DNA of 51,073 nucleotides. Origin: a virus. The stretch is taken from positions 1 through 51,073 of IMG/VR virus record IMGVR_UViG_3300024221_000018. One strand, written 5' to 3'. This document shows, piece after piece, positions 30,301-51,073 of the stretch. The stretch's first letter is position 1. Each line of letters begins with the position of its first letter. The notes beneath the pieces were generated by a model, which did not search any database, was not told the origin of the DNA, and was given only the letters and a program-made list of their open reading frames with translations. The translations under genes were made by a program, and so were the position numbers.

Positions 30301-33300
30301 TGATTGGTAAACAGTTGCTAAAAATCTTTCACCATTTAAAGCTTGTCTTAAATTGTTAATTCCTTTATCTCCGAAATCATAAAATCCAATAGATAATATT
30401 TGACCACCTACTCTTAATTTTATCTCTCTATTGTTTGCAAAAAATAAAGGTCCATTAGCATTTTCAGAGTCTTCAATATTATGATTAGCTATTGTTCCTA
30501 CAATACTTTTAATAATAGCTGCTTTATCATTACCTTCTAATTCACTATTTAAAAGAATATTATCTATAATGTGATCTGCATCTTTTTCTGATACTTTTTT
30601 AGTTTCTAAACGTACAGGAACTTTATCACCATTAGCAGAAGTAACCATTGCGTAAACTCTACCATCTTCTACTTTTGCTTCATATTCTTTTTCAACGCCA
30701 TTTTCCGTATAAATAACAGTACCATTACTACCAACACCTAATGTAAAATCTTTTCCAAAAGCACCTAAAACTCCTATTGGATTTTTAGCAGATGAACCAT
30801 CTGGTTGCTTTTGATTTATAACAAATCCTTTTCCTTTTTTATGTATCATAACTGGTACAGCTCCTGATTCATCTGAATAAACATCAAAGTTTGTCCTTAA
30901 ATCGGATAACTCTTCTACGCTGTCAGCAGCAATTTTTTGTACTGGAGGACCATCTGGAGTTAAATGAACTGTAATAGGTTGATTATGTTCACCTGCGTCT
31001 GGGAATATCTCTTGTCCAGCTTTTTCATGTCCTTGAGGATATACATATTGTCCTTTTTTAAGATAAACTACCTGGTCTTTTTTTGCATTTTCAGGTTTAA
31101 CCCAGTCTTCAAACGCTAATACTTCGCTTTCTAATACAGGAGTCTCGTTTAAATCTGCTGGAACTATATAAATAGGCTCACCTTTCATACCTTTTGTTAG
31201 CAAAGGAACTGGAGCAGATGATTTATCGTATCTAAACTTATCCATTCCAAACCCTTGCCTTATTATAGGCATACCAGTTGTCTCATCCAATTTAACTGGA
31301 TACCAATATAAAGGAATAGCAACTGCTTTCTCAGCTTCTGTAAGATTGTCTTCTGTTTTTCTTACATACTTAGTAGCTAATTTTGGAATAGGATTACCAT
31401 TTTCATCAGTAGCTTTTACAAAGAAACCTTTTTCACGAACACCCATCTCGATGTTATTAGAAGTAGGAGTCTCAGGATTATCTATCTGCAGAGATATAAA
31501 TTGCGTATCAACTGTTGTTACAGCATCTACTGGCATTGCTTGTAACTGAGGTTGCATTTTAGCTTCAGCCTCTTCTTCAATATCTTCTTCTTCTGTAGTT
31601 TCAACCTCTGAATCAAGATCTAAAACAGGGGTGTTCTCTAAACCGTACTTAGCAGAATTATCACCTTCTTTTTCAGATAACTGAACGATACGAATATCTT
31701 TAGTATCTAACATTGCATCTGGATCAACTCCAGCTTCTTCTAATTCTTTATCTCTTTGTTCTAAAGCAGCTTCCTTATCTTTTAATGCTTGTTCAAAAGA
31801 TTGTAGTTCTTGTACTCGTTCATTCAGTATCGCTGCTTCAGATGACTTTATATCATCTCCCAGTAAATCTAAGTTATCAGTGATTTCTTTTACTGTATTA
31901 GCCTCTTCTAAAAGCATTTTAGTACCATCAGATAATTCTGCTTTTCTTTCTGGAGATAAATTTTCTAATGTTTTATTAGGAACTTTTTCCCCCAAATCTT
32001 CTGCAGTAGCAGTAGGCTCTGTTTCTTGTACAGTTATTTTACCATCTTCACTCAGACTTACTGTTGGAACACCTAATATTTCATTTAAACTCTGTTGTCC
32101 TTCAGAAGGAGCATTTTGAGTAGGAGCTTCTTCTTTTTCATTTGTTGGAGCTTCTACTTTTTTACCTGGTTGTTTTTTAGCAGCCTCAGCAACTTTTTTA
32201 GCAGCTTTAGGTGTTAATCCTAATTCTTGTTTTAACGACTCTGCCTGTGTATCTATATGCTGTAATACTTCAGTTTGAGCTTGTTTTCTTTTATTGTCTA
32301 AAGCAATAGTTTCGTTTTTAGAAACCTTTTCTAAAAAGTCATATAAAACATCTAAACGAGAATTTTTCTCAGGATGATTTGATTTCTGTACAGAGTTAAT
32401 TAATGATTGAATACCATCACGAGTTAAACCATTATCGATTATTTCATCTTGTATTCTTTCTCTAAACGCATCTTCCCTACGTCTTTCAAATCTATTTTTA
32501 CGAATATCATCTGCTTTATTTTTAGCAGCCCTTTTACCTTCAGATTTTTTAACCATCTGAATATACTCTGAATCTAATTCATTTTGTATTTTAGAATTTT
32601 CATCAGCTTCTTTTTCATTATCTCTTTTTAACTTTAAAGCAAAGGCAAAGGCATCATTTTCTAATGCTAATTCTTCATCTGACATAGATGCATACGAAGG
32701 AGATAACCCAGAACGTATTTCGTTCATAGCTTTTTCAACTTCTTGTATGTTTTCTTTTGCTTCTTTTGTGTATTTTTTATAATTCAAAGCAGTAGCCCTA
32801 TTAACTACTGCACTACTTTGTAGTTTAGGAGAAGCAAAACTAAATTTATTATAAGCATCTTCTGTTTCTTCTATAAACTCAATAGCACTTTCAGCTCTTT
32901 CTTTATAGTTAGAAGGCATACCTCTTTCATCAATAGCTTCTTTCTCAGGAATACTTGCCATGTGTTTATACGCTGCAAGTAAAGACTCAGTAGTACCGTC
33001 TTGCAAACTGTTTTTAACCTGACTCCATAACATATTATCAGCAGCTGCACTTACTTTTGCTTGCGCTTGTTCTATTTTCTTTGTGTCTCCCTCTGCTTCT
33101 GCTTTTTCCAGTTCTTTTTCGGCTGCTTTTTGAGCTTCAGCTTTTGTTTTGAAATCCGCTGCAGAAAGAAAAACACTTGATAATGTTCCATTTTTAGCAC
33201 TGCTTTTCTTTGCCATATTATCAATCTCAGCAATACGTGCTTCTTGTTTTTCAAACTGTTCTAATTCTTGTTTGTACTTACCAGACGCTTTTCTGTACGC

Positions 33301-34608
33301 CATACCACCAGCTCCTTGACCAATACCACCAATAGCCCCAAGCGTACCAGCTTCCCAGAAACTTGCATCATCAGCATATTTAGCCATAGAATTACCGTCA
33401 GCTAACGCTGATAAAAGATTATCCTTACCTCCTCCAGCAATCGCTTTTTTACCTTCTCCTTCAGCTATAAAGTTTATTTGTTCTTCTCCAAATTCTTGTA
33501 CACCCTCAGCACCTAATGTTCTTAGTCCTGCTTTTGAAAATAATTTTTTAGGGGCCTCAAGTAAAGTTCTTGATGCTAATGTTTGAGCACCAGCACGAGT
33601 AAACATACTTGCACCAGTTAAATTCAAAGCAATATTTGCTCTGTTAATGGCAATTATATTAGAAGCGTCATCAGCAGCTTTGGCTTTAGCTTCTTCTTCA
33701 GTAGCACCTAAAGAAATATAATGATCTAAATTTTCTTTGTAAACTGTTGAAGCTGACATTACTGCTTCTGTTTGATTCAGAGCTGTAGCTGTAGCTAATG
33801 TGGATGTTCCTTTAGCTAATTTTTGTACCCACTTAGCTGCGTTAGCTGTTAATCCAGCAGCACCAGCACCAAACGTAGCACCTACTACAGCACCTTGCGC
33901 TGCAAAAGCTCCTATTGAAGCAACTAAAGAAGAACCGTTTTCAAACCACCATGCTGGATCTCCAATATCAAAAGCCTCTCCTGGCTTTTCTCTGTAAATA
34001 GCAAAAGAGTCATTCATTGCATTTTTATACTCTTCCATTTTATCTGAAATAGGATTACCTACTTCATCATCTTGATTGTAGTAATCTTCTATATCAACCA
34101 TAGAAGCCATACCACCTACAAAATCAAATATAGCACCACCCACAGCTCTAACAACCGCATTACCAGCTTGCTCAACTCCACTTTGTCCTTGAGCTCTACG
34201 TAAATCTAACTCTTGAGTACCAACCCAAGGTTTAACTTGGTCCATATAATCAGAGTAAGCATCTACATCTATGTCATATACTTTATTTGCGTTTAATCTC
34301 GCACCAGCACCTTCTTCGTATTTTCCTGGATTCTTTTTATAATCTTCAAGCTGTGCTCCTCTAAGAGGTAGACCTGTTGAAGGATCTAAAACAGTTTCAT
34401 TTAAAGCCTCAGAAATAGTTTTTTTCTTTTCTTTTTCACGCTTTGCTGGTCCAGGACCAGGATTAGCAGGAACACTTTTTTGAAATTGTTCTTCTTGTTG
34501 TTTACGAAGTCTTTCTAATTCTTGTTCTGAATAAGCTACACCAGTAGCAGGATTGATTGCGCCAGCCCCATAGCCACCGTCTGTATTGAACATTATATTT
34601 TCTTCCAT
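21367..34608 (-). CDS. giant polyvalent virion protein with crAss-type RNA polymerase, zincin and P-loop kinase-like domains, 4413 aa
   Basis: Residues 1-60 are a disordered leader. About 225-260 and 415-440 are Ala/Gly-rich hydrophobic stretches that could insert in membranes. About 440-980 is helical, coiled-coil-like and highly charged. A possible ART-like segment (YRSLSKEGFINAAETG) lies near 1610. A zincin HEAFH is at 1881-1885, with EEEMAEAF as a possible third-ligand helix, as in phage polyvalent metallopeptidases. The polymerase region (about 2950-3900) includes ADAQGYTTLEAHR, ESAVKVGKSG and the catalytic TGSDYDVDKMF (DYDVD 3380-3384), the DxDxD of two-barrel RNA polymerases seen in Crassvirales virion RNAPs. 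A P-loop domain (GHPGLGKST 3403-3411) is embedded just after it. I chose the ATG at 34608; the upstream ATG at 34641 lies in an inverted-repeat loop. By homology it should be packaged, ejected and transcribe early genes. Confidence 0.87.
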   Translation of the reverse strand: MEENIMFNTDGGYGAGAINPATGVAYSEQELERLRKQQEEQFQKSVPANPGPGPAKREKEKKKTISEALNETVLDPSTGLPLRGAQLEDYKKNPGKYEEGAGARLNANKVYDIDVDAYSDYMDQVKPWVGTQELDLRRAQGQSGVEQAGNAVVRAVGGAIFDFVGGMASMVDIEDYYNQDDEVGNPISDKMEEYKNAMNDSFAIYREKPGEAFDIGDPAWWFENGSSLVASIGAFAAQGAVVGATFGAGAAGLTANAAKWVQKLAKGTSTLATATALNQTEAVMSASTVYKENLDHYISLGATEEEAKAKAADDASNIIAINRANIALNLTGASMFTRAGAQTLASRTLLEAPKKLFSKAGLRTLGAEGVQEFGEEQINFIAEGEGKKAIAGGGKDNLLSALADGNSMAKYADDASFWEAGTLGAIGGIGQGAGGMAYRKASGKYKQELEQFEKQEARIAEIDNMAKKSSAKNGTLSSVFLSAADFKTKAEAQKAAEKELEKAEAEGDTKKIEQAQAKVSAAADNMLWSQVKNSLQDGTTESLLAAYKHMASIPEKEAIDERGMPSNYKERAESAIEFIEETEDAYNKFSFASPKLQSSAVVNRATALNYKKYTKEAKENIQEVEKAMNEIRSGLSPSYASMSDEELALENDAFAFALKLKRDNEKEADENSKIQNELDSEYIQMVKKSEGKRAAKNKADDIRKNRFERRREDAFRERIQDEIIDNGLTRDGIQSLINSVQKSNHPEKNSRLDVLYDFLEKVSKNETIALDNKRKQAQTEVLQHIDTQAESLKQELGLTPKAAKKVAEAAKKQPGKKVEAPTNEKEEAPTQNAPSEGQQSLNEILGVPTVSLSEDGKITVQETEPTATAEDLGEKVPNKTLENLSPERKAELSDGTKMLLEEANTVKEITDNLDLLGDDIKSSEAAILNERVQELQSFEQALKDKEAALEQRDKELEEAGVDPDAMLDTKDIRIVQLSEKEGDNSAKYGLENTPVLDLDSEVETTEEEDIEEEAEAKMQPQLQAMPVDAVTTVDTQFISLQIDNPETPTSNNIEMGVREKGFFVKATDENGNPIPKLATKYVRKTEDNLTEAEKAVAIPLYWYPVKLDETTGMPIIRQGFGMDKFRYDKSSAPVPLLTKGMKGEPIYIVPADLNETPVLESEVLAFEDWVKPENAKKDQVVYLKKGQYVYPQGHEKAGQEIFPDAGEHNQPITVHLTPDGPPVQKIAADSVEELSDLRTNFDVYSDESGAVPVMIHKKGKGFVINQKQPDGSSAKNPIGVLGAFGKDFTLGVGSNGTVIYTENGVEKEYEAKVEDGRVYAMVTSANGDKVPVRLETKKVSEKDADHIIDNILLNSELEGNDKAAIIKSIVGTIANHNIEDSENANGPLFFANNREIKLRVGGQILSIGFYDFGDKGINNLRQALNGERFLATVYQSSTGNPEYNYGEPLLNDDGKPKQEYFDPKSPKTLTPEMLEALQDFRQVIKDAIMSKNYDVSKKNIVSNTATIDHTTGETYNSYSEYLEGKNILTTDVTGLSTGQKFTNSKAQLIPVNKKIQIVTPSVEVTSDIDSLDVAKAKTKADIKRRRQVELLSIENSVELTPENQSNYINDQLAYRSLSKEGFINAAETGVLSQKGYNNNPKYSSIYFGNGTKGFNVVMDFAEKAGGDPYIAVVPRANLKTAGLKHNASTTNSNTTKPVFTNDVVYLIGDYKNEKIYVKEHTEIDKINAKYDAELTALEQQDNAVKNESNTDGEATPANIEIVSETDNVIDSDPTQNEIDNNTQELEPEKELDGTETINTEDIDPNDEDLVFRKVESKFEENPLNILTDTEISWIIDTFGEEHLAPMAQAKFILIKGEKAYGAYSNGMVFLARDGKKGTAYHEAFHLVLDLASTSKEKEVLMKAAKKVFGEINKRSQKYQDLKTTYPNKNEAELAEVYYEEEMAEAFRTFMESEESKGKIKKTKVGIAIQKFFDRIRKAILAMRIKGSQMLNRDSVYLSNSIMNKAFLNIKNGNVTFSERAKSIMDKQYFNPNDFKLRRKKGFTEEFKHDMVSTMRYALMRKVIPKMIADGRTTATSITEMITSNKYVEDVRTAINETRDILLKQGTTFLNSKNPTANKTLSGRYLEKSLQDSEWNDKFEGGIVSDPGFGSLLIDSLKLHGSNVKRQKTTDGFTEYDAKKVENEVLEFGEEVVEEGENESTSIERIHNSHFALSDPKKTLASEVKIALSFVPTPTIVDKKTGKTISNGRSKFTMLPTFIDFHKVYSMLTSKLADVDISEMEDKLQELSAWNPMISSVYTEYQNWSPELKNKFKAVMSKTQLKFMTVVSGENMEWKLIETNRTGVLKQILEGWARNKNAKNLFVEEQGQTATVNKEVLQKMADSYETLSNEKLQENPVDYYKAINEVFSFIGIEFDAPVLQMLATKYSPKDFNKSYVQGKFKFIMNELGYDVKTKKIKSGKGVDPYVSTQNKGQLKTITKIAELVKDVSTDLYTGSFVNGEGKMVYSINLNSYISKFKQDVSTVENIEKMWEDSYSKDVFYNPDGNLGVHGSLFFELLKNNPKMREEFDIIELDTAKDKEKGKGTSFDQMIEKQAWLTRMAMFANNGNRKSTGYSYISMGTKADKGRSLYMKVPTLQNAKAPAEMSISNGIGVKYVKEAAKHVLKRNVMQEAARIRLTQEQLFGPEALRDDQLVENLHYKGTNPDGTLNRKAANGLKFMSIPDLNFSTYGLFNTDGSLKEISTETNYAKVNKALDAFLDREVLRGKNRMVKAGVLFEKDGIYYTDMVKVDSFGGTSVTIDGEQVNKIDDQVSEFLMNELVWRTEINKFQMGDLALYKTKTADISNDAEFNGVKGEFLSVVTDAGKRSYQTITPGIDHVIDSMYGKPKQMSMAIMKDIETSMSVDSAVNIAENLVGESNWAKPYLTEDGMKKSTSSLSTEKKDAIKIVRMYRKGSNSADAQGYTTLEAHRHSMMSRGDWTMEGEHSHEKAYNEYWKKEVPVSSWPDWVNKLALKPLKTFYWGKQYDVALQRVSFKQIKHSTVPLYAGMTKQVPSLDKLRQRMEATGEFSNMDPIDVVNMESAVKVGKSGVNTYSQDGSYLSNMTLQTIYSENERSPFILPTDKGTDPKDGSQFVKLITSNMDPGAVYNTVEGMEAMTTEQIKSVSNSVYVEKIKRASKKLREDLGYDKYLANGKSNSRENQLEFLKKVQKLLIEQIESRDLPDNYSIALEIQQLESGDYSFAMPLSFPAYAKKFEIALASLYKSRVLTQRLPGDAAVQVAEYGDDTENRLKYYSFENGDMKAAECAISYKEAEKLGILEYADENGIIDHDKMPDKSVLEIIGYRIPTQGKSSMLPLIVKRILPPTSKGQIMLPHEIVTQTGSDYDVDKMFLYYPALQNKKHSIIWGHPGLGKSTLRKNRQDVLDFDTDFKPKVAELLGLPEGKRSSVSLNKWRKEDPKNEALFEKAMKKVWGQAKKQAKKDGSTLMVSDMMFLKDFQSDFDKVITTNKNTFIKRAKERGDSVEGLESWKENIDKVVNNVSKDKIVSTEKYLSDIFDSLNLKQGIQKVPFQNSLKKMVEGTKSADALSDKQIENILFATRFGILTSKHNNKEVVNPLDSATYPNKMEEYGDYNLLEKTSTFNFSSGYTDMHLEMVNKDAKALVGIFSSHSVGQAIAQDVSIATSTPVYIKTVDQDGKEIGTKDNQANDLSGIYGFDGVLRSIYTNENQNASLDNAKDPITGSLNINTFTANVVAYLNRLGYNNDIAVDLINQPIIRELTNANNLSTDGAYITTLAAEVAERFDLPKVGRTGKELSYDAAENNRVTITPENLKAVLKATKSLDEMSEDELMYQKQVLLDFVQYHKAGTDLAKTNKMMSPDRFTQMSGLVDIEIWKNNKTYVEEGRGAITVNNLYTEDAAVPRIKAYYDEAILGAENIISEFMPYNSKVFSIIKDSIAYSTHQKDGYIGDKDLLNKINSDIFSYVMFGKDSPVQKYMMSDSDQDVIKRKLFDIKRSTAKQIDILKKKYNLQNNTFLSMVSSDNFNSRNSLQMLKFNNTASYSGETKSSFVDAFEELVYYPEKVLKSSYPKFNTLSAVEKQKAVDALSLNMRRIIQYGIVTSGFQNGPNTFIDLFPVRLWKDLTLNEDGQSLGSLSKYIADQLEAFENVANEHLTAYAVDTKNDDALGDISGQYNMVDQIIRNRFEADKLLKSVSLRANKLDVTKEAESITGKKKFPHTFGVSSDNAANLFNIQRKSGDLVKAELKSPAGFPYYIKMWDTENKKWRLYKRQSQIVDAIKGYAEYQVISPLGEEHKFFEVYPTKENPDSIHPDNNDFKVVEPKKTTPKKSKETADDSLFEDEYNPEQELPGIDFEQYSGSSDVSLNSMSEPGGINIIMPKSEGDIVNKKIDDGELGLSCSK
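23940..24430 (-). other. P-loop kinase-like domain embedded in the RNA polymerase
   Basis: About 160 residues. Walker A is GHPGLGKST (3403-3411), then VLDFDTDF (a substrate-side DxD as in nucleotide/polynucleotide kinases), TLMVSDMMFL (Walker B-like) and TFIKRAKERGD (lid-like arginines). The Walker A starts 23 residues after the first catalytic aspartate. RNAP-like sequence resumes around residue 3560-3680 (NKDAKALVGIFSSHS). Confidence 0.7.
24457..24471 (-). other. RNA polymerase catalytic motif DYDVD
   Basis: DxDxD motif (residues 3380-3384 of the giant protein) within LPHEIVTQTGSDYDVDKMF. In two-barrel RNA polymerases these aspartates hold the catalytic Mg2+. The flanking R.PTQG.SS...PL.V...LPPT segment upstream matches the same barrel in phage RNAPs. 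Confidence 0.85.
28954..28968 (-). other. zincin metallopeptidase motif HEAFH
   Basis: HEAFH (residues 1881-1885 of the giant protein) in GTAYHEAFHLVLDLA, the HExxH zinc site of zincins. EEEMAEAF about 60 residues later could supply the third ligand. It may act on host or phage proteins after ejection, or self-process the giant protein. Confidence 0.75.
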
Positions 34609-34613
34609 GATAA

Positions 34614-34685
34614 TACTTTTTACTAAAAACAGGTAGATCAAAAATACAAAATATCCTTTAATCTATAACTGTTTTTAGTAAAGTA
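34614..34685. repeat. inverted repeat before the giant gene
   Basis: TACTAAAAACAG (34621-34632) and CTGTTTTTAGTA (34669-34680) are a perfect 12-base inverted repeat with a 36-base spacer. Allowing a 2-base bulge, the arms extend to 34614 and 34685. On the minus strand the repeat fills the gap between the NlpC/P60 stop and the giant ATG, its 3' arm ending 5 bases before that ATG. It could be a paired operator around a promoter, or an mRNA stem that controls translation or processing. Confidence 0.7.
34639..34646 (-). promoter_or_regulatory. candidate Bacteroidota-type -7 element (TATTTTTG)
   Basis: On the minus strand TATTTTTG matches TAnnTTTG and lies in the spacer of the inverted repeat, about 30 bases before the giant ATG. 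No good -33 element is seen at the right distance. If real, it would give the giant gene its own promoter flanked by the repeat arms. Confidence 0.35.
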
Positions 34686-34696
34686 TAATCTAAAAG

Positions 34697-35524
34697 TTAA
34701 TAACTACCAGTATAAACTTTTTCCAAAACATCTCCCATTTCTGCTAATCTCTCTGAATAAGGAGTAAGAGCCACTCCGTTTTTACTTGTTGCTGATTCAG
34801 CTATCATAGGTTCTCCTTGGGAGTTATAAACTATTATACCAATATGGTCAATACCATACTTTCTATTTTTATCAAACCCATGGTCTCCAGTATCAAATGC
34901 TATCACCATTCCTTCTTTTAAATCTGATTTTTTAATAGATTTCCAATCTGTATAAGTTTTATGGTCTTTAGAATTAACCCATAATCCTTGAGAACTTAAA
35001 TCATCTGTTGGAACTGATTTATTTAAGTCTGTAAGTACTTTATAAACAAACCCCGAACAGTCTATACTATTCCCACTTTTATCTCCAAGATTATATGTTT
35101 TATCTCGCATAGAAGCAACAGAACGAACTATAGCTTTACTTGTACTATTTGATGGTAGTTGATTAAAAGCACTCACAATTTCATCTCCTTTTAAAGATGT
35201 TCCAGAAGGCTTTTCATTTTGCTCCAGAGTTTGCTGTGCGTATGCTTCAGCTTTAATATCATTCAAAGTTTTTGGAGTTGCTCCATTTTTTTCTACCATA
35301 TTTGATTTAACTACATTTGATTTACCTTTTAAGTTATCAGTAGTCAATTCTTTTGCAGGAGTAACAGGAGCAGGTTGCTGATAAGCTTGCTGTTTTATTT
35401 GGTCTAATGTAATTCCAATATTTTGCTTTGGAATTACAGGTTGTAATGGTTTTTGTGGTGCTGGTGGCTCTTGTTCTTGTATGCTTGAAGTAGTAAGAAC
35501 AGGAGGAGTATTAGGCAATGGCAC
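34697..35524 (-). CDS. NlpC/P60 peptidoglycan peptidase, virion-associated
   Basis: A 275-aa protein with a Pro/Gln-rich disordered N-terminal half (residues 1-115) and a C-terminal NlpC/P60 papain-like domain. Catalytic Cys156 is in DCSGF and His227 in GIDHIGIIVY; the third polar residue is probably in AESATS (about 243-246). Such enzymes cut peptide stems of peptidoglycan, here most likely to open the wall during DNA entry, since the gene sits among virion genes. There is no ATG: translation could start at GTG 35524, which has AAGGAGG 7 bases upstream. Alternatively the domain is made as a -1 fusion to the 981-aa protein, since its frame is open back to an A9 run. No signal peptide or holin is adjacent, which argues against a classical endolysin. 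Confidence 0.82.
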   Translation of the reverse strand: MPLPNTPPVLTTSSIQEQEPPAPQKPLQPVIPKQNIGITLDQIKQQAYQQPAPVTPAKELTTDNLKGKSNVVKSNMVEKNGATPKTLNDIKAEAYAQQTLEQNEKPSGTSLKGDEIVSAFNQLPSNSTSKAIVRSVASMRDKTYNLGDKSGNSIDCSGFVYKVLTDLNKSVPTDDLSSQGLWVNSKDHKTYTDWKSIKKSDLKEGMVIAFDTGDHGFDKNRKYGIDHIGIIVYNSQGEPMIAESATSKNGVALTPYSERLAEMGDVLEKVYTGSY

Positions 35525-35556
35525 AGCCCCTCCTCCTTGTTCATTACTTGGGATAT

Positions 35557-38502
35557 TTACTGAGTTATTGGACTTTTTTTTTCAACCTCCTCTTGTTCAA
35601 ATATAGATGGATCATATTGTATTCCTAACATATCCATTAAATTTCTATATGTTTGATTCGGAACGTTTACTGCTTTATATGCATTTTTATATTCTTTATC
35701 AATAGATTGTAGTAGTATTTTACTATCATCTCTACTATCCACATCTACAGTAAATCTTTTAGCTTCTAAAGCTTTACCAGTCAACATACCATCTGTCATT
35801 GTTAAAAATAACTGACCTTCAGGAGAGTTAGCATCTATAGGAGGTAATTTTGTTGTTTTAGGATCTATGTTACTTATAAAAGTATGTAAATCTGGTAACG
35901 TTTGTTCCAACCCATTATAAAAAGTTGTAGATGGAGATAAATTTTCACCACTATACTGATAATTTTGAGATCCAGTTTTTTTCATTTGGATGGTATTATC
36001 AACACCTTGTAATATAAAACGATTATTTACAGGTATTTTAGTAAGTTGTGGAATATTTATCTCTGTTGAATAATTATTTTTAGTATCTGATATTTTTAAA
36101 TTAGCGTCTGCATTTTCAAAAATCGCATCAGTTGTAACCGTATTATTTAATCTATCTTTTACAAAATCAACTGCTCCAGATTTATCTGTTACATTAGCTT
36201 GATTCAAGTAGTTACCTAAATGCGTATATAATGAGCCTGAAGCATCTCTACTTGAGTACATGGTGTAAGAAGTAGGTACTTTTGTAGCTTTTCCAGTATC
36301 ATCGTATGTTGTTAAAGTACCTTTTACTATTATTGGAATATACTCTTCACCTCCTCCTAAATCTAATTCATCCATTCCTACATGAGAAAACTCTTCAGCT
36401 ACAAAACCTGTTAATAATTCTGGGTTCTCTGTAGCAGATATAGCCTCTCCTGTTGTTGTATTATAAACAACAGCATTTTTTTGATTAATTATATCTGTTG
36501 CTGATGATAATGCATTTGCGTAAGATTCGTTAGCCATTTTCTTTTGTGGTTCAGAAGCTAATCCTTTTTCTATTTCAGGAATAGCTAAAAATCCAGTAGA
36601 ATATGCAGGTGTTTCGACACCTACTTTTTCGATATGGTTATTGTACGCATCGTAATACTCTTGTTTCATATCTTCTGCCATAGCATCAAAAACATCATCA
36701 AACTCTTGACCATGTGATGAACCTCCTCCTTTATGTTTATAAAAATAACCACCTAATTTTATTAACGCTTGTTCTTGATTTTCAGGCCACTTTAAGGCAT
36801 CTGTTACTTTTTTTACTGCTTCAGGATCTTTAGTGGCTAAAGCTTTTACAAAAGTAGCTCTATCTATTCCTGCTCTTTCAAAAAACTCTGGTTTTGCCTC
36901 AGCACTATATCCTTGATCTATTACATAACTAAGTCTTTTAGCAAATTGCACAAACTCTTTATTATCCATATTAACACCAGAAGCTTCATTTATAGCTTGT
37001 CTTACATACTCTGTGCGTACATAGTCTTTTACATTTGAAATATCTGATGTAACTTCCCCTAACTCAAGATCGTTATCTTTAATGATATTTCCTTTAGCAT
37101 CTTTTTGAAACTCTACATTTTTATAAAAATCGATAGTATTTGTCTTACGATCCCACTGTCCAGTTCCTTCTAATTGACGTTTTATTTTAACAGCTTCTAC
37201 TCCTTCATTGTTATTTTGAATAGTATTATCTTCCCAATTATTTCTTGTTTGTACAAGTGTATTTAATTTATTTATAGCAGCTTGTTGCTCTATCTGATAC
37301 TGTTTATACTGAGATGCAGTAATTGGAGGGGTAACATTATTTCTAACTGCTTCTTCGTATGCTTTTATCTCTGCAGAATGCTCTTGGGTTTGTGCTGCAT
37401 AAGATCCTTCCAGTTGTGCTACTTCTTCTGGAGAAGTATATCTTTTAGAATTAGTATTGTTAACACCAGTTACTTGATCAACACTTGTCTCAATTGCTGG
37501 AGGAACAACTACTTCTTCAACTTCATCAGCTTTCTTTCTTTTATATGCTATGGTCGCAGCAAGTTGTGCATCGTTTTGTGTATGCGCACCTATTTCAGTA
37601 TATGCAGCGTAATCAACTGCAGCTGCGATACCTTTATCAATATAAGCTTCTTTATCAAAAACGGTTCCACCGTTTTGTTCTCTTAATTCTTTAATTAAAT
37701 AATTAGCCCCGTCTTCACTATGACCTTGACTCATTAATTCTTTCTTTTTAATAATCTCAGCTCCCCTATCTTTTTGTTCAAAGAAAGAAGTAAAAGCAGG
37801 AGAAGAGTTTACATAGTTTTTAGCAATACGTGTAGCTTCTTCAGCAGTAACTTCTGAATTGTCTTCCCATCTAAGAACACCAAAATTATCAGCTTGCATT
37901 ATACGCCCATCCTCTGTATAGATAGGTGTCTTGTTTGCTTTGATACCTTTTAAATACTCTTGAACATTTTTAGCCATTTCAGGAGTTTTCTTAGCCATTA
38001 CATTTTCCCATTTATTAAACGATCTATAATCATCTACTTCTCCGATACCAATTTGATTTTTAGCTTCTATATCAGCCATAGCTGCTGCATATACTTCTGG
38101 ATCTAAACTCGCTTTTTCTTCTTCAATAGCTTTTTTATTTGCTTCATAACCTTTAGAAAAACTTCTAATATCTTGTAACGCAACATCATTAGCTGCTTGA
38201 GAACCAAGACCTATCATTTTATTATACTTCTCCGTGGTCGTCAGCTTTTTATCATTTAGAACCCTTTCTTGTTCAGTGTTGTAATAATTAGCTCTTTGTT
38301 CTAATTTACGAGCATTAAAATCATTTGTAGCACGAATGTCTTGATATTGTTTATCAAGCAGAGCCTGCTGTTTAGCCAACTTTTCAGTTTGACCTGTTCG
38401 CCATTTTTTGTTTTCCAATAAAGCACCAAAAGGAATTGGATTCGCTTCTGGCATTAATGCAGCTCCTGGAGCTAAAAATTGATATTGTGGTGTATATCCC
38501 AT
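35557..38502 (-). CDS. cargo-type internal virion protein, 981 aa
   Basis: No enzyme motif is visible. The first 450 residues are strongly helical and charged (RTGQTEKLAKQQALLDKQYQDIRATNDFNARKLEQRANYY and similar), suggesting long coiled coils; the rest is mixed, with beta-rich C-terminal part. There is no signal or transmembrane segment. In Crassvirales structures, large helical cargo proteins lie between the muzzle and RNA polymerase genes, and this gene has that position, so a cargo role is inferred from order and size. The 3' end carries the A9 run; about half of the last ten residues (VEKKSPITQ) would be replaced by the NlpC/P60 extension after a -1 slip. Confidence 0.78.
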   Translation of the reverse strand: MGYTPQYQFLAPGAALMPEANPIPFGALLENKKWRTGQTEKLAKQQALLDKQYQDIRATNDFNARKLEQRANYYNTEQERVLNDKKLTTTEKYNKMIGLGSQAANDVALQDIRSFSKGYEANKKAIEEEKASLDPEVYAAAMADIEAKNQIGIGEVDDYRSFNKWENVMAKKTPEMAKNVQEYLKGIKANKTPIYTEDGRIMQADNFGVLRWEDNSEVTAEEATRIAKNYVNSSPAFTSFFEQKDRGAEIIKKKELMSQGHSEDGANYLIKELREQNGGTVFDKEAYIDKGIAAAVDYAAYTEIGAHTQNDAQLAATIAYKRKKADEVEEVVVPPAIETSVDQVTGVNNTNSKRYTSPEEVAQLEGSYAAQTQEHSAEIKAYEEAVRNNVTPPITASQYKQYQIEQQAAINKLNTLVQTRNNWEDNTIQNNNEGVEAVKIKRQLEGTGQWDRKTNTIDFYKNVEFQKDAKGNIIKDNDLELGEVTSDISNVKDYVRTEYVRQAINEASGVNMDNKEFVQFAKRLSYVIDQGYSAEAKPEFFERAGIDRATFVKALATKDPEAVKKVTDALKWPENQEQALIKLGGYFYKHKGGGSSHGQEFDDVFDAMAEDMKQEYYDAYNNHIEKVGVETPAYSTGFLAIPEIEKGLASEPQKKMANESYANALSSATDIINQKNAVVYNTTTGEAISATENPELLTGFVAEEFSHVGMDELDLGGGEEYIPIIVKGTLTTYDDTGKATKVPTSYTMYSSRDASGSLYTHLGNYLNQANVTDKSGAVDFVKDRLNNTVTTDAIFENADANLKISDTKNNYSTEINIPQLTKIPVNNRFILQGVDNTIQMKKTGSQNYQYSGENLSPSTTFYNGLEQTLPDLHTFISNIDPKTTKLPPIDANSPEGQLFLTMTDGMLTGKALEAKRFTVDVDSRDDSKILLQSIDKEYKNAYKAVNVPNQTYRNLMDMLGIQYDPSIFEQEEVEKKSPITQ
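35574..35582 (-). other. A9 slippery run joining the 981-aa and NlpC/P60 frames
   Basis: On the minus strand the run of nine A near the 3' end of the 981-aa gene reads GAA AAA AAA AGT in frame; the -1 frame is open through 16 further codons into the NlpC/P60 gene. AGGAGG lies 4 bases upstream of the slip heptamer. Ribosomal -1 shifting or RNA polymerase stuttering (A9 to A10) would both give a fusion. Confidence 0.55.
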
Positions 38503-38521: not shown

Positions 38522-41500
38522 TTAACCTATATTAGTTCCCATTCCAATCAGAGAAGTTCCAGCACCTTTAACAAATTTACCAAGCCCAGCCCATCCAGAT
38601 CGTTTTTGAGCATTACGTAAATCAAGTTCTTGTTTATTGAGCTCGTTAACATATTGAGCGTATTCTCTATCTTGTTGCCCCATGTTTTGATACATACCAC
38701 CAAGCATTCCTTGTTGACCTGCAAGACTTCCATATAAACTTGCTTTTTGAGATTGTAGACTTCCTTCAGAAGAACCAAGTTGATTCATACCTGCTGCTTT
38801 CATTTTTTGAGTATCTAAATCAAACTTATTTTTGTAAGCTTCTATTGATCCCATCTGAGCTTGTCTTTGTCCTTGGACATTTTGTGCTCCTGCTAACATC
38901 TCAGCTCTTGAGCCTGCACCACCACGTAATGCGTACATTTGATTACCTGCAGCATTAGAAGCGTCAGCTCTTTGTTGAGAAACATCTAAATCACCCATTC
39001 CAGCATAAATATCTCTGGATGCTTGAAAATCTCTAACTGCTTGTGAATCCATATCACCTACAGTTTCACCCATAGCACCAAGATTTCCAGACGCATTTCC
39101 AAATTGATTTAATGCATTTTGTTTTTGCTCGTTTTGAAGTCTTTCCCATTCATAAGGATCTTTTCTTCCTTGAGCAAAATCATAAAACATTGTAGGTAAA
39201 GGTGTTGCAGCACCTACTCCTGCTCCTATATTTTGTAACATTGATCCATCACCATGTTGAGGTAATTTACCTCCATACTTAGCTATTGCAGGTATTCCAG
39301 CAGCAGCCATAACAGACTTTGTTAAAATTTTTCCAATATCTGATTGAGCCATATCTTTTGAAGAATCTTTTTTATCTTCAGTTGTAATTTCTGGCATATC
39401 TTCTGTAGCATTTCCTTCTCTGTCTTTAGTTTTATCCATCATTTCTAAAGCTTCCTCAGACAAACCACCTTGATCAGGTTCTTGATTGTTATAGAAATCT
39501 AAAGCAGCGTTTCTATAACCTCCCTGTCCAGTGTACCCGCCATAAGCAAAGTTATATTGCATACTTAAATTTGGGTTAAAATAACTATCTTTTCTCATAA
39601 CATTATTAATTCCTAAGTTAAAGTTACCCTTTTTATTTGAATAATTATAAGAAGCATTTAATTCTGGATTAAGTTTTTTACGAGAAGCAGGATAACTATT
39701 TACTTCCACACCAAAATTACCTTTTTTTGTAGGTTGGTTATATCCTACGGACAATCTATTAACTTTAAATTTAGAATTATCTTGAATAGGTATTTCACCA
39801 TTCACAGCTGCTCTTAATCTATTTTTTGTTCTAAGTTCTAAATCTGTAGCAACTGTATCACCATTTTCATTTCCTGAGCGATAAGCGTTTAAATTTAAAC
39901 TACCTCCATTAGGAAACATAGTAAGATTACCACCCATTTCTTCCATAGGCATTTGAGACATTTGTTGTGCCATCATATCTAAAGTTTCTGGAGTTGGAGC
40001 ATTTGGAGGTACAGCGTTAGCATCTAATGCTTTAGCAAATTCCCCTGCTTCTTCTGCTCTTCCAGGTTGAGCTGGAATACCTTGTTCAGCTTTCATTTCT
40101 TCTTGCTCTTCAAATAACTCATCTAATTTAGCATTATACTTATCAGCCATTATTTGAGAAGTACGTCTTGAAATAGCTTCAGAACTTTTATTTTTTATTA
40201 CGTCTTCGTACTTACCTATCTTCTTTAAAAGTTTATCTGCTTCTTCAGAGAATGGTCTTTTAGTTGTAGGACTTTTTAATTTTTTAGAAAATATTCTACC
40301 TTCAGTTGCTCCAGATGTAGCCATCTTAACTCCTGAGTTTGGATTTGCAGAGCTCTCTTTATGATCTACTCCGTTTATCATAGCACCTCCGTCAGCTCTG
40401 TATGATAGAGAAGGATTCCCTCCACCACCATTAATTTGTATTCCATCTCCTTGTATCACTTCTCCACCCTCTGCTTCAAACTGAGAAGGAGTAGAACCAC
40501 CTAATTTCATTTGCATAGGATACATTATACTTGGAAAACTTTCACCATCATCCTCATTAAAATTTCTTTTTCTTCTTAATTTTTCTTCTGCTATTGCTCT
40601 TCGCATTTCCTCTTCGTCTTTATAGATAGCACCATAAGCAAATGATTCATCTTCATTTGGGTTAGAGGAAGTTCTATTAAGATATGGAATAGGCATCATT
40701 TCTGTAGCAGGATATATAGCATCTAACCTTTTTGTATCTTCAAAAGTAAGAGGTCCTTCTTTTATGTATCTTCCTTTTTTTCCTTCTTTAGCTCTTTTAG
40801 CTTGCCTTTTTGTTAATTTACCACCTAACGGACCACCTTTTGCGTAATGTGTATTCATAGTTCCTCCTAATTTAAAATTAAGTATTCTTTTATCAGCATA
40901 GTCCCACCCTGGTTTATTTTCTACAGCATCTATTAATGCATCTTTAGCTTCATCTACAACACCTGTATCATCTAACAATTGAGCTTTGTTTGCTAATTTA
41001 GCTGTTTTATTTACTGTATTAAAAGCATCTATGGCTTTTTGATTAGCTTTTTGTAAAGTAGGATCAATATACTTAATATTATCTTTTAATGATTTTGTTA
41101 ATGATCCTGATACGTTATCATAACTTTTAACTTTATCGTATGATTTACCTATTGTTTTAAATAATTTTTCTTTTGTTTTATTTGAAACAGGTAATTTATT
41201 AACTGTTTTATTTGCTTTTATTAATGTTTCAAAAGCAGGACCTAATATCTTACCAGACTTCCCTATTTTACCTAATAGTGGTAATGCTCCTAATAGTTCA
41301 AAAGCTGTTTCTCCAGAAAACAAACCATTCTTATCATACGAATCTTTTACATCTCCCCATGAAGTCATCCCTGTAGGATCTAAAAATTGTATAGATGGTT
41401 TAACAAAATTTTTATAATATTGAGTAGGTCTTTCTCCTGTAACAGTAGCTGTAGGCAGATGTCTATAATCAGGATTCATAAATTGTGACTCATCGTAAAC

Positions 41501-42106
41501 GATGTTATCATCTACAGATTGAGCATTTTTATATAATTCTTTGGATTTAGAACCATCTGGATCATCTAAAAGAATCCATCCTCTATTATTTTCATCTGGT
41601 ACATTTACTAACCAATTACCTTTTTCATCTAAACCATATCGTACACCAGGTCGTTTATCATAAGTAAATATCTGAGAGGGTTTATTTAAACTACCACCGT
41701 TAGGAAACATTCCTATTGCAGCTTCTTGTCTAACTACTTCAGGCTCAACAATTTCTGGTGTCATAGGAGCTACTCCTGATTGTTCAGCTTGTAGTTTTTC
41801 AGCATCTTTTTCAGCTTGACGTTCCGATATTTTATTACCAGCCATACTGCCAAGCTTTGCACCAGCCGATGCACCAGCAGGACCACCAAGAAAAAATCCT
41901 CCAATTCCACCAGCCACAGCTCCAATAGCTCCAGCATTCTTGCCTAACCATTGTCCAAAACCATGTTGAGGTATTTTACCACCATAAGCCATTTGGTATT
42001 GTTGATAAGCATCTGGAAACGCTTTTACCAACTCTTCTTCTGTATAAGATTTATTACCAAATGAGTACGTTGGTTTTTTTACTGGTATTTGTTTTATTGT
42101 AGACAT
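38522..42106 (-). CDS. glycine-motif virion protein with outer-membrane-barrel-like patch, 1194 aa
   Basis: A modular protein with no enzyme motif. Residues 57-90 are a glycine-zipper-like hydrophobic stretch (GAIGAVAGGIGGFFLGGPAG). Short GG motifs recur: YGGK.PQHG at 41-49 and 944-952, MFPNGGSLN at 133-141 and 730-738, and LGGT 413, KGGP 423, LGGS 535, EGGE 546, DGGA 572, MGGN 724, YGGY 855. Residues 755-858 alternate short strands and turns (KVNRLSVGYNQ, GNFGVEVNSY, NPELNASYNYSN, GNFNLGINN, NPNLSMQYNF), like a small outer-membrane beta barrel ending in aromatic F. The C-terminal 200 residues are Gln/Gly/Ala-rich helical. Its position after the muzzle gene suggests an ejected cargo protein that helps cross the envelope; that is inference. 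Confidence 0.8.
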   Translation of the reverse strand: MSTIKQIPVKKPTYSFGNKSYTEEELVKAFPDAYQQYQMAYGGKIPQHGFGQWLGKNAGAIGAVAGGIGGFFLGGPAGASAGAKLGSMAGNKISERQAEKDAEKLQAEQSGVAPMTPEIVEPEVVRQEAAIGMFPNGGSLNKPSQIFTYDKRPGVRYGLDEKGNWLVNVPDENNRGWILLDDPDGSKSKELYKNAQSVDDNIVYDESQFMNPDYRHLPTATVTGERPTQYYKNFVKPSIQFLDPTGMTSWGDVKDSYDKNGLFSGETAFELLGALPLLGKIGKSGKILGPAFETLIKANKTVNKLPVSNKTKEKLFKTIGKSYDKVKSYDNVSGSLTKSLKDNIKYIDPTLQKANQKAIDAFNTVNKTAKLANKAQLLDDTGVVDEAKDALIDAVENKPGWDYADKRILNFKLGGTMNTHYAKGGPLGGKLTKRQAKRAKEGKKGRYIKEGPLTFEDTKRLDAIYPATEMMPIPYLNRTSSNPNEDESFAYGAIYKDEEEMRRAIAEEKLRRKRNFNEDDGESFPSIMYPMQMKLGGSTPSQFEAEGGEVIQGDGIQINGGGGNPSLSYRADGGAMINGVDHKESSANPNSGVKMATSGATEGRIFSKKLKSPTTKRPFSEEADKLLKKIGKYEDVIKNKSSEAISRRTSQIMADKYNAKLDELFEEQEEMKAEQGIPAQPGRAEEAGEFAKALDANAVPPNAPTPETLDMMAQQMSQMPMEEMGGNLTMFPNGGSLNLNAYRSGNENGDTVATDLELRTKNRLRAAVNGEIPIQDNSKFKVNRLSVGYNQPTKKGNFGVEVNSYPASRKKLNPELNASYNYSNKKGNFNLGINNVMRKDSYFNPNLSMQYNFAYGGYTGQGGYRNAALDFYNNQEPDQGGLSEEALEMMDKTKDREGNATEDMPEITTEDKKDSSKDMAQSDIGKILTKSVMAAAGIPAIAKYGGKLPQHGDGSMLQNIGAGVGAATPLPTMFYDFAQGRKDPYEWERLQNEQKQNALNQFGNASGNLGAMGETVGDMDSQAVRDFQASRDIYAGMGDLDVSQQRADASNAAGNQMYALRGGAGSRAEMLAGAQNVQGQRQAQMGSIEAYKNKFDLDTQKMKAAGMNQLGSSEGSLQSQKASLYGSLAGQQGMLGGMYQNMGQQDREYAQYVNELNKQELDLRNAQKRSGWAGLGKFVKGAGTSLIGMGTNIG
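39245..39280 (-). repeat. second copy of YGGK.PQHG.G protein repeat
   Basis: Encodes KYGGKLPQHGDG (residues 943-954), 900 residues after the first copy and also followed by a Gly/Ala stretch (GAGVGAATPLP). Confidence 0.75.
41954..41989 (-). repeat. first copy of YGGK.PQHG.G protein repeat
   Basis: Encodes AYGGKIPQHGFG (residues 40-51 of the 1194-aa protein), followed by a Gly/Ala hydrophobic segment. Confidence 0.75.
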
Positions 42107-42143: not shown

Positions 42144-45100
42144 TTATCTTGCTGAGAACCTGTAAAAAGTTTTCAGGTAGTGTAATAAGAATCTTCTATC
42201 ATTTATATTATCAAATTCAAAATCGGCAATCATAATCTTATCACGAAGCCTATCTTTAAACTCTCTGTTTTTATCTAAATTAACAGGATTAAAAATATCT
42301 ATATCTACTGGAGTAGCTCCAAATGAGTTCAATACTGCGTTTCTTGCAATAGCTGATTGCCACTCTCTGTCTACTCTTCGTATATTATTTTTTGGAACAA
42401 TACTTACCCAGTCTGTATTTTGATACGTAGTATTACAACGAATCCTACTAAATGTTTCTTGGTCTATCTGAATAGGATTAGAATCATTAGAAAATACCTC
42501 TGTGTAGTATCCAAAGTTATCAAACACTTTAGTAATACCTTTACCATCATTAATGATAAGTTGTAATGTAGAATTAAAAATGTTACCATAGAACTCACCG
42601 TACTTTCCTTTATTATGTCTATACAGAGCCTCCGAATTTATTGGGTTTGGAGATAGTATATTCACACCATCGTTTAAGTATATCGTAGGAGCGTGATCGT
42701 AGAATCCTGTGAATACTTCATACGCCTCGTTATATACAATAGTCTCTTCTACAATCTCCATGATTTGTACATCGAATAATAAAGCTGTTTCACCTAAGTA
42801 TTTCCCGTAAAGGTCTTGATCTATTATACCAGTAGCATCTACCGCACCATTGAATATTGCATCAGATCCGATAAATGAACCAACAGACATACGTATGTAT
42901 ACAAAATCCGTATCAGAAGTTGTTTCTGATATTAAAATACTTTGGTCAACACCTTCTACATTAATTTCAACATAGTTACCTATGGATATAGATAATATAC
43001 CTAAACAAGTCTTCGAAACTTTTAATGCATTTGTCATGATATTATCACTTGGAAAAGCCTGGAATGTGTAACGAGCAGATGCTTTACATAAAGAAATAGG
43101 CTGTCTGTTTAAGAATGTAAACCAAACTTCATTAAAACGTGTTGACCAAGTAGAATGTATACCCTTATTAATCAATGGGTTATCATTAGTTAAAAGATTA
43201 CCAACCAGTTTATCAAAGAACCATGGATTCATACCTGCTTGCATTGAAACTGGTACTAATTGTTTTCCTTTAATCGAATACATTTGTTTATGGTATGAGT
43301 CTATAAACATTAAATTCGTATTCGTAGAGATTGGAACCCATTGATGGAAACATCCTATATCAGTAGAGATGTATTCGAAATCATGCAGTACATCTCCAAA
43401 ACCAATTTGTAGACTTCCTGCAGGGCCGCCTGTAATTGATCCCCTTGGATTTATTAATAAGTACCCACATCCGTGATCTTGGAAAAAGAATATCATATCA
43501 TTATGATTGATAAGTCTATTTACAGGTCCTAAACTTCCTTCCACATCTTTGTATAAGAAAGCGTCAAACTGTCTCCAGTTATCGATTACCTCACCATTAA
43601 TCTTTCCTCGTGAGGCATAGATTCTATTATCAAATGTTTCCAGTAAAGGAACTCCAACAGGTCTACCTATAAAGGATATAAAGTCGTCTTCCCTACTATA
43701 CAGAGACTCTGCTTCGTAGGTATCATGTGCATAAGTTATATCACTTGCAGGAGGGTAACTACCGTCAGGTTTTGCTTTGTTCAAGAAGTGTCTTCCGTTT
43801 CTTAATGTAGTATTGAACGTACTAACTAAAGGAACTACAACTCCATCTCTGGATGTATATGTGACAGGATCAATCGGCTCTTTACCATCCACACGAGTAA
43901 AATCGTATTGTGCGTGATAAACATCTCCACCAAAAACACTGAATGTATTTAACGCTGATGAACCTGATTCTTTCTGAATGAACCCTCCAGTACTCTGGTA
44001 CACGTTATTAGCTCTCGCTGCTTGAGTGTTACCACCGTATTGGTCTAATAATTCTCTTTCATAGGTTACCAACATAGGTCGCCCATTTAATCCTCCACTC
44101 TGTGTAGATGTATTTCCAGGAAGAAATAATTCTACTCCTCCTCCTAATGTAACAAATAGACATAAACCACCATCTACCTGTTCTTCACTATTTGACATAT
44201 CTGCGGTTGGAGGCGTACTGTTCGTAAACTGTACGGTAGGAGATAGTGTTGGTATAGCTGATAATACTGCTCCTGGTTGAATCTCTCTTGTAAACTCTAA
44301 TGGTATTGTTTTCTTACCATTACTTCTTACTTGATCTCCATCTGTAGGGTCTCCATAACCATTTTCAGTTCCTGGGTGTATTACAATCTTCGTTGGTTCA
44401 GAAACACCACAATTCAACATAGTATTGTTGATAGTTAAATCCTCTTCTATAATCTCTGTAAATGTACCGTCCACACGTATACGATCTCCTAACGAACTTC
44501 CAACCGTATTAAAGAATTGTAACTCTGGGCTATAAATAACCAAACTCTTCTTAGCGTCTGCTGGATATAAAGTAAGATCATCATAATCAGGATAAGCATC
44601 TTTTCTTCCTTCTACCATTGGTCCAGAGACATTCCACCTTAATAAATTTCCTCCCTTTCTTGGGAACAAGTATAAGTTATCATCACTTTCTACTTGGCAT
44701 AGTTGATGAGCGATTCCCTGAGCAAGTTTAGTTCTATCCGATACTTCCCGTTTTACTCTTACTATTTCGTACCCACTTATGCTGTCTAAAAGGTTAGCGG
44801 GAATTTCTATATCAAACTCTAATCCAAGTTGATTTAATTCTACTCTGTCCCCTAAAGAATCGGAAACAGATTTCAACATATCAGCACCACCTACATAAGG
44901 ACCACCAGCAATAGTTTCTCCCCAAGGGTAGTTACCATAAGCTCGTAGATTTCTACGCATTTCCCATCTTTCTGGAAATTTAATATCACCGATCCAGTTT
45001 ACAAATCCTGGATTCCCTGCTAAATCATATAGTACTATTCCAAATCTATATACTTCTCCAGGAGAATACCCTCTAAAGATTACATTAACGAAAGGACTCT

Positions 45101-48856: not shown

Positions 48857-48892
48857 AAAAAAGGAGGATTAACAAGTAGCTATCCTCCTTTT
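48857..48892 (-). terminator. intrinsic terminator before the ring-muzzle block
   Basis: On the minus strand AAAAGGAGGAT (48892-48882) pairs perfectly with ATCCTCCTTTT (48869-48859), 12-base loop, followed by a run of six T. It lies 34 bases after the 104-aa gene and 23 bases before the ring gene. The A-rich 5' flank could also let it work on the other strand. Confidence 0.85.
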
Positions 48893-48925
48893 AATCTTTT
48901 AAAAGTACCTCTCTCTATAAAAGAC

Positions 48926-51060: not shown

Positions 51061-51073
51061 TTTTTTTTATTGT

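Follow-up and report, generated by a model that had tools for sequence, protein, structure and literature searches.

Crassviruses are very abundant gut phages that breach the cell wall when injecting their DNA and giant polymerases. The window analysed here, a stretch of 51,073 nucleotides that is a partial genome of a crAss-like phage, may bear on how this is done. The gene for a 981-aa protein in a cargo position and an NlpC/P60 peptidase frame meet at a run of nine adenines (A9). Are these two genes, or a single gene that is read in two ways? We consider it fairly probable that a frame change at A9, by whichever route, joins the cargo protein and the peptidase as one recoded gene.

Genomic context and role of the 981-aa protein

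The genes concerned all lie on the minus strand, in the order tail ring protein 1 (46941–47693; PF24228, E 9e-55), muzzle protein (42144–46934; PF25731, E 1.6e-144), a 1194-aa protein in the cargo protein 1 position (38522–42106; partial similarity to the matching region of four of 24 records, E < 1e-3), the 981-aa protein (35557–38502; ATG start with an A-rich upstream element), the NlpC/P60 peptidase and a giant RNA-polymerase-like cargo protein of 4413 aa (21367–34608; ATG at 34608, within an ORF that extends to TTG 34641). The last was named polymerase-like from its position and a DYDVDK motif; it shares 48% identity with its positional counterpart in the nearest relative, record G001, and gave no Pfam polymerase match.

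The 981-aa gene follows the muzzle and rings and has cargo 1 on one side and the RNA polymerase on the other, which is the cargo protein 2 (C2) position. In this it resembles gp45 and gp46 of phiCrAss001, encoded between muzzle and RNA polymerase and described in the available text of PMC10172136 as virion cargo with an expected part in channel formation. However, neither the 981-aa protein nor its homologue matches gp46 in sequence (profile of the window and G001 proteins, probability 0.3%, E 0.19), and the same text, as far as available, mentions no peptidase on gp46, nor peptidoglycan, NlpC or lysozyme.

The homologue in G001, P0002, is 34% identical over 390 aa. A profile search of 41 records matched the window and G001 only; tblastn of C2, P0002 and the peptidase against 50,697 phage records, blastn of the region against phage records and two scans of genome contigs gave no match, and an RNA-polymerase-based scan of viral contigs returned already-known contigs only. 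For comparison, the stretch behind ring 1 was taken from 24 other records, of which L088 and L090 were dropped as their frames were full of stops under table 11, and C2 in the others was taken to be the ORF that precedes the longest ORF, a choice by position. The window and G001 proteins showed a weak N-terminal alignment with 11 other C2-position proteins (hhalign E 1.7e-4, probability 49%), which in turn showed a weak N-terminal match to gp46 (probability 54%, E 1.3e-4). Because tblastn of the 24 other regions gave no clear homologue (best E 0.20) and gp46 is not matched either, it is the position of the gene, together with the weak N-terminal profile match, that speaks for a cargo role; the protein is probably injected at infection.

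Frame layout and coding signal at the A9 run

The A9 run (35574–35582, minus strand) lies in GAA AAA AAA AGT near the end of the 981-aa ORF, which reads GAG GAG GTT GAA AAA AAA AGT CCA ATA ACT CAG TAA, with the stop of the unslipped frame at 35557–35559. In the -1 frame a TGA is followed by AAA AAA AAG TCC, and no stop occurs until 34697; in the third frame, too, a stop follows the run by only a few codons. The open frame (34697–35581, minus strand) comprises 294 codons to its TAA, first a Pro/Gln/Asn-rich linker and then an NlpC/P60 domain (PF00877; 34751–35101, E 2e-7, 31.4 bits against a curated cut-off of 23). The domain contains DCSGF and DHIGI, whose DCSG and H-G contexts we take to mark the catalytic Cys-His pair. 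A one-base frame change gives a fusion of 1268 aa ((3806+1-3)/3), with a junction reading VEKKK-SNNSVNIPSNEQ. The site, the open -1 frame, its 16 stop-free codons between the run and GTG 35524, and a fusion of about 1268 aa had all been proposed in the preliminary description and were confirmed on the minus strand. Readthrough of the C2 stop codon was rejected, since the zero frame past TAA does not reach the peptidase.

The codon use of the peptidase frame is coding-like as early as the A-run, before the GTG is reached. The 16 codons between run and GTG score 0.569, the 46th percentile of true coding, a value reached by 0.12% of all off-frame windows and by none of 4,510 open off-frame windows. 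It had also been stated that this frame has no ATG and that GTG 35524 is its first possible start. The GTG is indeed the first start-type codon, but an ATG is present at 35297–35299, upstream of the domain. A separate start there was rejected on account of the 75 codons before it, which are coding-like (score 0.815), and of its start score of -4.3, which is like that of internal codons (mean -4.1; only one of 29 reference starts scores lower). Among 3,283 off-frame open runs none reaches 94 codons, the longest being 78.

The run itself is anomalous. Across 28 genes (15,107 codons), one run of at least nine adenines was observed against 9.9 expected from codon shuffles, and one or none occurred in 1 of 1,000 shuffles; for at least eight adenines the figures were 2 and 21.5, and a count as low as two was seen in 0 of 1,000 shuffles. 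(Of 37 ORFs, 29 were used for the start model, 28 for the codon model and 30 for pairing energies.) Runs of at least nine adenines are absent from the coding strand of the regions taken from 22 other crassvirus records. Such depletion of slippage-prone A/T runs in coding regions is described in the available text of PMC1088944. The locus has several marks of a slippage-type recoded gene of the Thermus dnaX or mxiE kind: a coding run of about nine A/T, avoidance of such runs elsewhere in coding sequence, an alternative frame that is coding, and other frames that stop near the run. A second A9 on the coding strand, at 51060–51068, overlaps a start codon and is not within any gene.

Separate translation from the internal GTG

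The peptidase could instead be a separate protein translated from GTG 35524, by reinitiation after the cargo gene or by ribosomes lacking bS21, which in Flavobacterium can start at strong Shine-Dalgarno sequences, and we regard this as unlikely. The C2 stop and the GTG are only 32 bases apart, and a Shine-Dalgarno-like AAGGAGG (35532–35538, minus strand) lies 7 bases before the GTG, with a predicted pairing energy of -12.7 kcal/mol compared with -6.6 to +0.8 at 30 other starts (assumed 16S 3′ end). This value is near those below -13 said in the available text of PMC9976891 to typify rpsU, where it is also reported that Bacteroidota ribosomes do not recognise Shine-Dalgarno sequences. The start style of the phage is ATG, A-rich and without Shine-Dalgarno sequences, and from start-site style alone its host looks Bacteroidota-like; no bS21 gene was found in the window, which is a partial genome.

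The objection raised earlier, that AAGGAGG could drive separate translation, is nevertheless weaker than it was put, because the motif, although real, is predicted to be buried in a hairpin and the GTG is a poor start. The GTG (35522–35524, minus strand) scores -9.2, below all 29 reference starts, and the 16 codons upstream of it already look coding in the peptidase frame. The predicted hairpin (35492–35548, minus strand, -27.2 kcal/mol) holds AAGGAGG in its 5′ arm and the GTG in its loop, and freeing the motif is predicted to cost about 16 kcal/mol. It lies downstream of the A-run by 25 nt and of the C2 stop by 8 nt. Its stability has a z of -3.8, equalled by 1 of 200 shuffles, and shares second rank when 70-nt windows from both strands, taken at step 4, are clustered. 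As an intrinsic terminator it was rejected, since no T-run follows it, unlike the one at 48857–48926.

In-frame peptidases in other crassviruses and the length of the run

The fusion architecture has a parallel, because in four of the 22 other crassvirus records an M15-type domain lies in frame at the C-terminus of the C2-position protein (L079, L080, L091 and L095). These proteins likewise end in a wall-type peptidase, but theirs is an in-frame M15-type metallopeptidase whereas that of the window is an NlpC/P60 cysteine peptidase. The assignment rests on Pfam for L080 (above the cut-off) and L095 (above it only as a C-terminal fragment) and on homology to these for L091 and L079, because matches to PDB sequences were weak: the best for a profile of the four C-termini was 0.052, to a hedgehog protein, and D-Ala-D-Ala carboxypeptidase-type proteins came at 0.1–0.15. 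In L073 the domain is indicated by motif only. Pfam was run on C2 in 19 of the 22 records; L093, L094 and L096 were read and BLAST-compared only.

The in-frame peptidases would also suit a reading that we hold to be slightly less probable than separate translation, namely that the population carries ten adenines or mixed lengths, so that the gene is in frame or phase-variable and A9 is the assembly consensus or one state. A-runs are mutable. However, A9 is present in all three assemblies, and since runs of at least eight adenines are avoided, an A10 within a normal gene would be just as surprising as A9. The two further assemblies are near-identical IMG/VR contigs (G002 and G003), perhaps not from independent samples: one shows no difference from the window in 26,973 aligned bases, and the other has 14 differences in 51,068, without indels and all of them outside the genes for cargo 2 and the peptidase. 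Beyond these two contigs, no diverged relative with the A9-NlpC arrangement was found. In G001 (81 kb, perhaps incomplete) the cargo protein is present and a PF00877 match is absent, and of the 41 records searched, many of them fragments, only the window itself matched PF00877. The ring 1 search behind this set gave 49 loci, two of them from the window's own phage; 40 of the other 47 were searched together with the window, the seven omitted from the PF00877 and C2 searches being on contigs under 17.2 kb. The 24 records used for comparison behind ring 1 come from this set.

Discussion

That a frame change at A9 fuses cargo 2 to NlpC remains the best reading of the locus, given the coding signal, the poor GTG, the rarity of the A-run and the M15 parallels. 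Normal reading of A9 would give the 981-aa ejection protein, and a frame change the 1268-aa version, in which a flexible linker leads to a peptidoglycan peptidase end. The step that we consider most likely is that RNA polymerase slips on A9. Transcripts with 10 (or 7) adenines would encode the fusion, and because those with 8, 9, 11 or 12 all stop within a few codons, only two product classes would be expected. Ribosomal -1 slippage on A_AAA_AAA may contribute, and the hairpin over the internal Shine-Dalgarno and GTG would keep the peptidase from being made alone. We infer that the fusion would enter the virion and leave it along with the remaining cargo, and that its tip would open a way through the wall for the ejection channel. 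On the evidence, slippage appears to give some copies of the protein a cutting enzyme at their tail. The "fixed ratio" of lysin in the ejection apparatus that had been envisaged finds no number in our analysis to support it.

Nine adenines are reported to slip in bacteria, with up to six extra bases (PMC5009743, available text). A close model is the A9 of Thermus thermophilus dnaX, which yields two products (PMC1088944, in the part available): there too nine sense-strand adenines are found, unproductive frames stop near the run and the products share an N-terminus. In dnaX, however, the templated frame gives the long protein, whereas in the window the slipped frame would. In the same text, Shigella mxiEa and mxiEb are overlapping ORFs joined by an extra nucleotide, and slippage is needed for the longer product; the run there is of U's, and the product is a transcription activator, not a virion protein. 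A phage example is the methyltransferase gene of Campylobacter phage CPt10, with a frame break at an A-tract and slippage proposed, although this is not a virion protein and slippage is only suggested in the available text of PMC2853527.

The preliminary description had likened AGGAGG to the Shine-Dalgarno stimulators of dnaX-type shifts. Both of the motifs that it named are present, AAGGAGG as given above and AGGAGG at 35586–35591 (minus strand), three bases before the A-run in Glu-Glu-Val codons. As in E. coli dnaX, an upstream Shine-Dalgarno-like sequence, a slippery A-run and a strong downstream stem-loop occur together, but the spacing, the hairpin distance and the slippery heptamer all differ, and the -1 shift in E. 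coli gives the short product. The Shine-Dalgarno sequence of E. coli dnaX lies about 10 nt upstream, and here it is 5 nt from the P-site codon. The heptamer of that type is A_AAA_AAG, and the zero frame of the window reads A_AAA_AAA and then AGT. A dnaX-type stem-loop starts several nucleotides after the slippery site, whereas 25 nt separate run and hairpin in the window, probably beyond a ribosome sitting on the run, and at this distance the hairpin was rejected as a classical stimulator. The start style is moreover that of hosts that ignore Shine-Dalgarno sequences. The likeness to a dnaX-type stimulator therefore found no support, and we give a -1 ribosomal shift with both stimulators a slim chance, as one case within the frame change at A9; polymerase slippage as at the Thermus A9 appears to fit better. 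That the frame break is a recent damaging or neutral mutation with the peptidase being lost is very improbable: the domain is indeed confined to a single lineage among the records searched, and a break of very recent date would look no different, but the frame is open for 294 codons with normal codon use, the catalytic-type motifs are kept and a second, slightly diverged contig is in the same state.

A peptidase that ends a protein in the cargo position, joined in frame in several lineages and here lying behind a candidate slippage site, points to a place in the ejection apparatus where the wall may be cut. If slippage indeed equips a fraction of an injected protein with a lysin, a known form of recoding would here serve a new purpose; we found no report of such a use in the open-access literature searched. 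In the available text of PMC10569736, where frameshift and cargo protein occur together, frameshifts are treated as sequencing errors only. Put in full, our proposal is that the phage uses the single slippage run in the coding sequence examined to deliver an ejection protein in two versions, one with a peptidase tip and one lacking it, that the hairpin bars free lysin and that sister phages achieve a like result through a lasting fusion in frame; as a whole we offer this tentatively, as somewhat short of an even bet.

With respect to the peptidase itself, a single-sequence AlphaFold model was too poor for use (mean pLDDT 45), and among PDB sequences a cell wall hydrolase was weakly matched (E 0.0016). 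The 275-aa peptidase ORF matches phrog_329, "minor tail protein", with E 8e-10.

Gene order and identity of the 981-aa protein

The 51,073-base window is a partial crAss-like phage genome, whose minus strand encodes proteins that Pfam identifies as ring 1, ring 2 and muzzle. Past the muzzle gene follow a 1194-aa gene, the 981-aa gene C2 (35557-38502, minus strand), the frame with an NlpC/P60 domain (34697-35581, minus strand; PF00877) and a polymerase-like protein, 4413 aa long if ATG 34608 is taken as its start. Of nine named phage records compared, eight belong to Crassvirales and one (Dulem virus 41) has no such label. In all nine, the muzzle gene is separated from the giant or polymerase-type gene that follows by two or three genes, all without a peptidase annotation. 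Comparable layouts were seen in 22 IMG/VR records retrieved via ring 1. In the nearest diverged relative, G001, a 1141-aa homologue of C2 is followed directly by the polymerase-like gene.

In crAss001, gp45 and gp46 are cargo proteins 1 and 2, for which PMC10172136 gives a part in channel formation as the expected role. Since, according to the same paper, Suoliviridae and the zeta group lack homologues of gp46, "cargo 2" is used here as the name of a position. The C2 and G001 proteins together gave no match to gp46 (probability 0.3%). A weak match (49%, E 1.7e-4) linked them to the N-terminal regions of eleven other proteins at the C2 position, and these eleven in turn matched gp46 weakly (54%, E 1.3e-4). 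C2 is thus a cargo protein 2 by position, with thin homology to known cargo proteins and a putative place in the virion.

The A9 run and the frame behind it

The nine-A run at 35574-35582 (minus strand) lies five codons ahead of the C2 stop, and the -1 frame that continues past it is a coding one. The preliminary description was accurate on the run, the open -1 frame, GTG 35524, both AGGAGG-type sequences and the 1268-aa length of the fusion, but erred in stating that the peptidase frame has no ATG, as ATG 35299 stands before the domain.

Long A-runs are scarce in this phage. In 15,107 codons of coding sequence we counted one run of at least nine A's, against a mean of 9.9 when codons were shuffled within genes (one or no such run in 1 of 1,000 shuffles), and two runs of at least eight against 21.5 (none of 1,000 shuffles that low). 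The corresponding regions of the 22 other records contain no run of at least nine on the coding strand and sixteen runs of eight. This scarcity resembles the depletion of slippage-prone runs in coding sequence that PMC1088944 describes. Chance alone is an unlikely explanation for the sole surviving run standing at this site with a coding -1 frame behind it.

Bacterial polymerases slip on runs of nine A's according to PMC5009743, and PMC1088944 describes two products from an A9 in Thermus dnaX and a longer product made by slippage in mxiE. For RNA polymerase slippage, our preferred reading, the run alone would suffice. A run of 7 or 10 A's puts translation into the peptidase frame; one of 8, 9, 11 or 12 A's brings a stop within about five codons. 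The junction peptide of the fusion would read VEKKK-SNNSVNIPSNEQ, and unslipped C2 ends in SPITQ. The AGGAGG upstream lies 5 nt from the P-site codon and the hairpin described below begins 25 nt past the run, spacings that fit a dnaX-type ribosomal shift poorly. It is conceivable that the real phage population carries ten A's, which would make the fusion permanent, as in the phages with M15-type peptidases discussed below. The fused protein is made under both readings, which differ in whether all or some of C2 is extended.

Translation from the run or from GTG 35524

The main rival to a fusion is that the peptidase is made separately from GTG 35524, the first start-type codon of its frame. In a codon model built from 28 genes of the window (mean of about 0.61 for true-frame segments and about -0.63 off-frame), the 16 codons between the run and the GTG scored 0.569. 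Of all off-frame windows 0.12% scored as high, and of the 4,510 open ones none did, in a test that was picked after this short stretch was seen and that uses overlapping windows. The 75 codons from the GTG to ATG 35299 scored 0.815. Coding-like sequence upstream of the GTG points to translation of the peptidase frame from the run rather than from the GTG.

Start signals bear on the same question. Across the starts of 29 genes, A occupies each position from -13 to -10 in 21 to 25 of the 29, and ATG comes first in 33 of 37 ORFs examined (taken from 49 listed). Shine-Dalgarno-like matches occur at only three places among these 37: at GTG 35524, at a TTG ORF at 17377 opposite a long gene, and, as a 4-mer, at a TTG extension of the polymerase-like ORF. 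Judged from start signals alone, this A-rich style without Shine-Dalgarno is of the Bacteroidota type. According to PMC9976891 and PMC6847099, Bacteroidota ribosomes do not recognise Shine-Dalgarno sequences; the former adds that rpsU retains a strong one, used by ribosomes lacking bS21. In leave-one-out scoring, the 29 true starts ranged from -6.4 to 6.0 and GTG 35524 scored -9.2. ATG 35299 scored -4.3, which lies within the range of internal codons (mean -4.1) and exceeds only one of the 29 true starts.

The GTG is also predicted to lie in the loop of a hairpin (35548-35492, minus strand; -27.2 kcal/mol, equalled by 1 of 200 shuffles), with AAGGAGG in its 5' arm. A longer stretch around it gave z -2.9, with none of 200 shuffles as good, and the hairpin tied for second among the clustered best of 25,502 windows of 70 nt on both strands. 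Forcing AAGGAGG to be unpaired raised the minimum energy to -11.1. The hairpin begins 25 nt past the run and 8 nt past the C2 stop, which we take to be near the leading edge of a ribosome terminating there. On this folding model, it may act as a lock on internal initiation.

Peptidase tips in other crassviruses

An in-frame C-terminal M15-type peptidase was found on the C2-position protein in 4 of 22 records. L080 matched the M15 family in Pfam at 26.8 bits (cut-off 23.2); L095 fell below that cut-off when searched whole (19.7 bits) and exceeded it as a C-terminal fragment (24.2 bits). L091 is homologous to L080 residues 3-1035 (E 5e-57) and L079 to the C-terminal portion of L095 (E 3e-27), and all four C-termini share the H..G.A.D and H.H residues. 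A fifth, L073, has the M15 motif only (Pfam E 0.21). No sign of an M15-type domain appeared in the remaining 17 proteins at this position, of which 14 were searched with Pfam and 3 were read. A wall-cutting tip at the C2 end is therefore apparently a design that recurs without being universal, and the NlpC frame lies at the place such a tip would occupy. No NlpC domain was found in diverged relatives; among 41 records searched, many of them fragments, it occurs in one, the window itself, and otherwise in near-identical contigs. A further match of the 275-aa NlpC ORF is to phrog_329, labelled "minor tail protein" (E 8e-10).

C-terminal extension by slippage or frameshifting is already known, and our searches of an open-access library showed no report of recoding that equips an ejection protein with a wall hydrolase. 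If true, the proposed fusion would be a known recoding mechanism in a new use.

Additional features

An extra cargo-position protein in L083 (5174-8308, minus strand; 1045 aa) has a C-terminal baseplate-hub-like domain (phrog_196, E 4e-9) and a GLIQF motif. In the window, a long AT-rich hairpin (34617-34686, minus strand) lies past the peptidase stop, just ahead of the polymerase-like gene start, and a likely intrinsic terminator (48857-48926, minus strand; stem AAAAGGAGG...CCTCCTTTTTT plus a T-run) lies between a 104-aa gene and ring 2. A 1314-aa gene (17409-21353, minus strand) has a weak, below-cut-off ADP-ribosyltransferase (ART-PolyVal) match at residues 54-147. Close behind its DYDVDK motif, the polymerase-like protein has an insertion of about 160 residues (23926-24423, minus strand; residues about 3396-3561) that contains the P-loop GHPGLGKST. 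The insertion gave weak NTPase matches in Pfam, all below cut-offs, and is missing in the G001 protein, to which the comparison was limited. Near residue 1881 lies an HExxH motif (AYHEAFH), most residues of which are shared with G001, possibly marking a metallopeptidase inside the giant protein.
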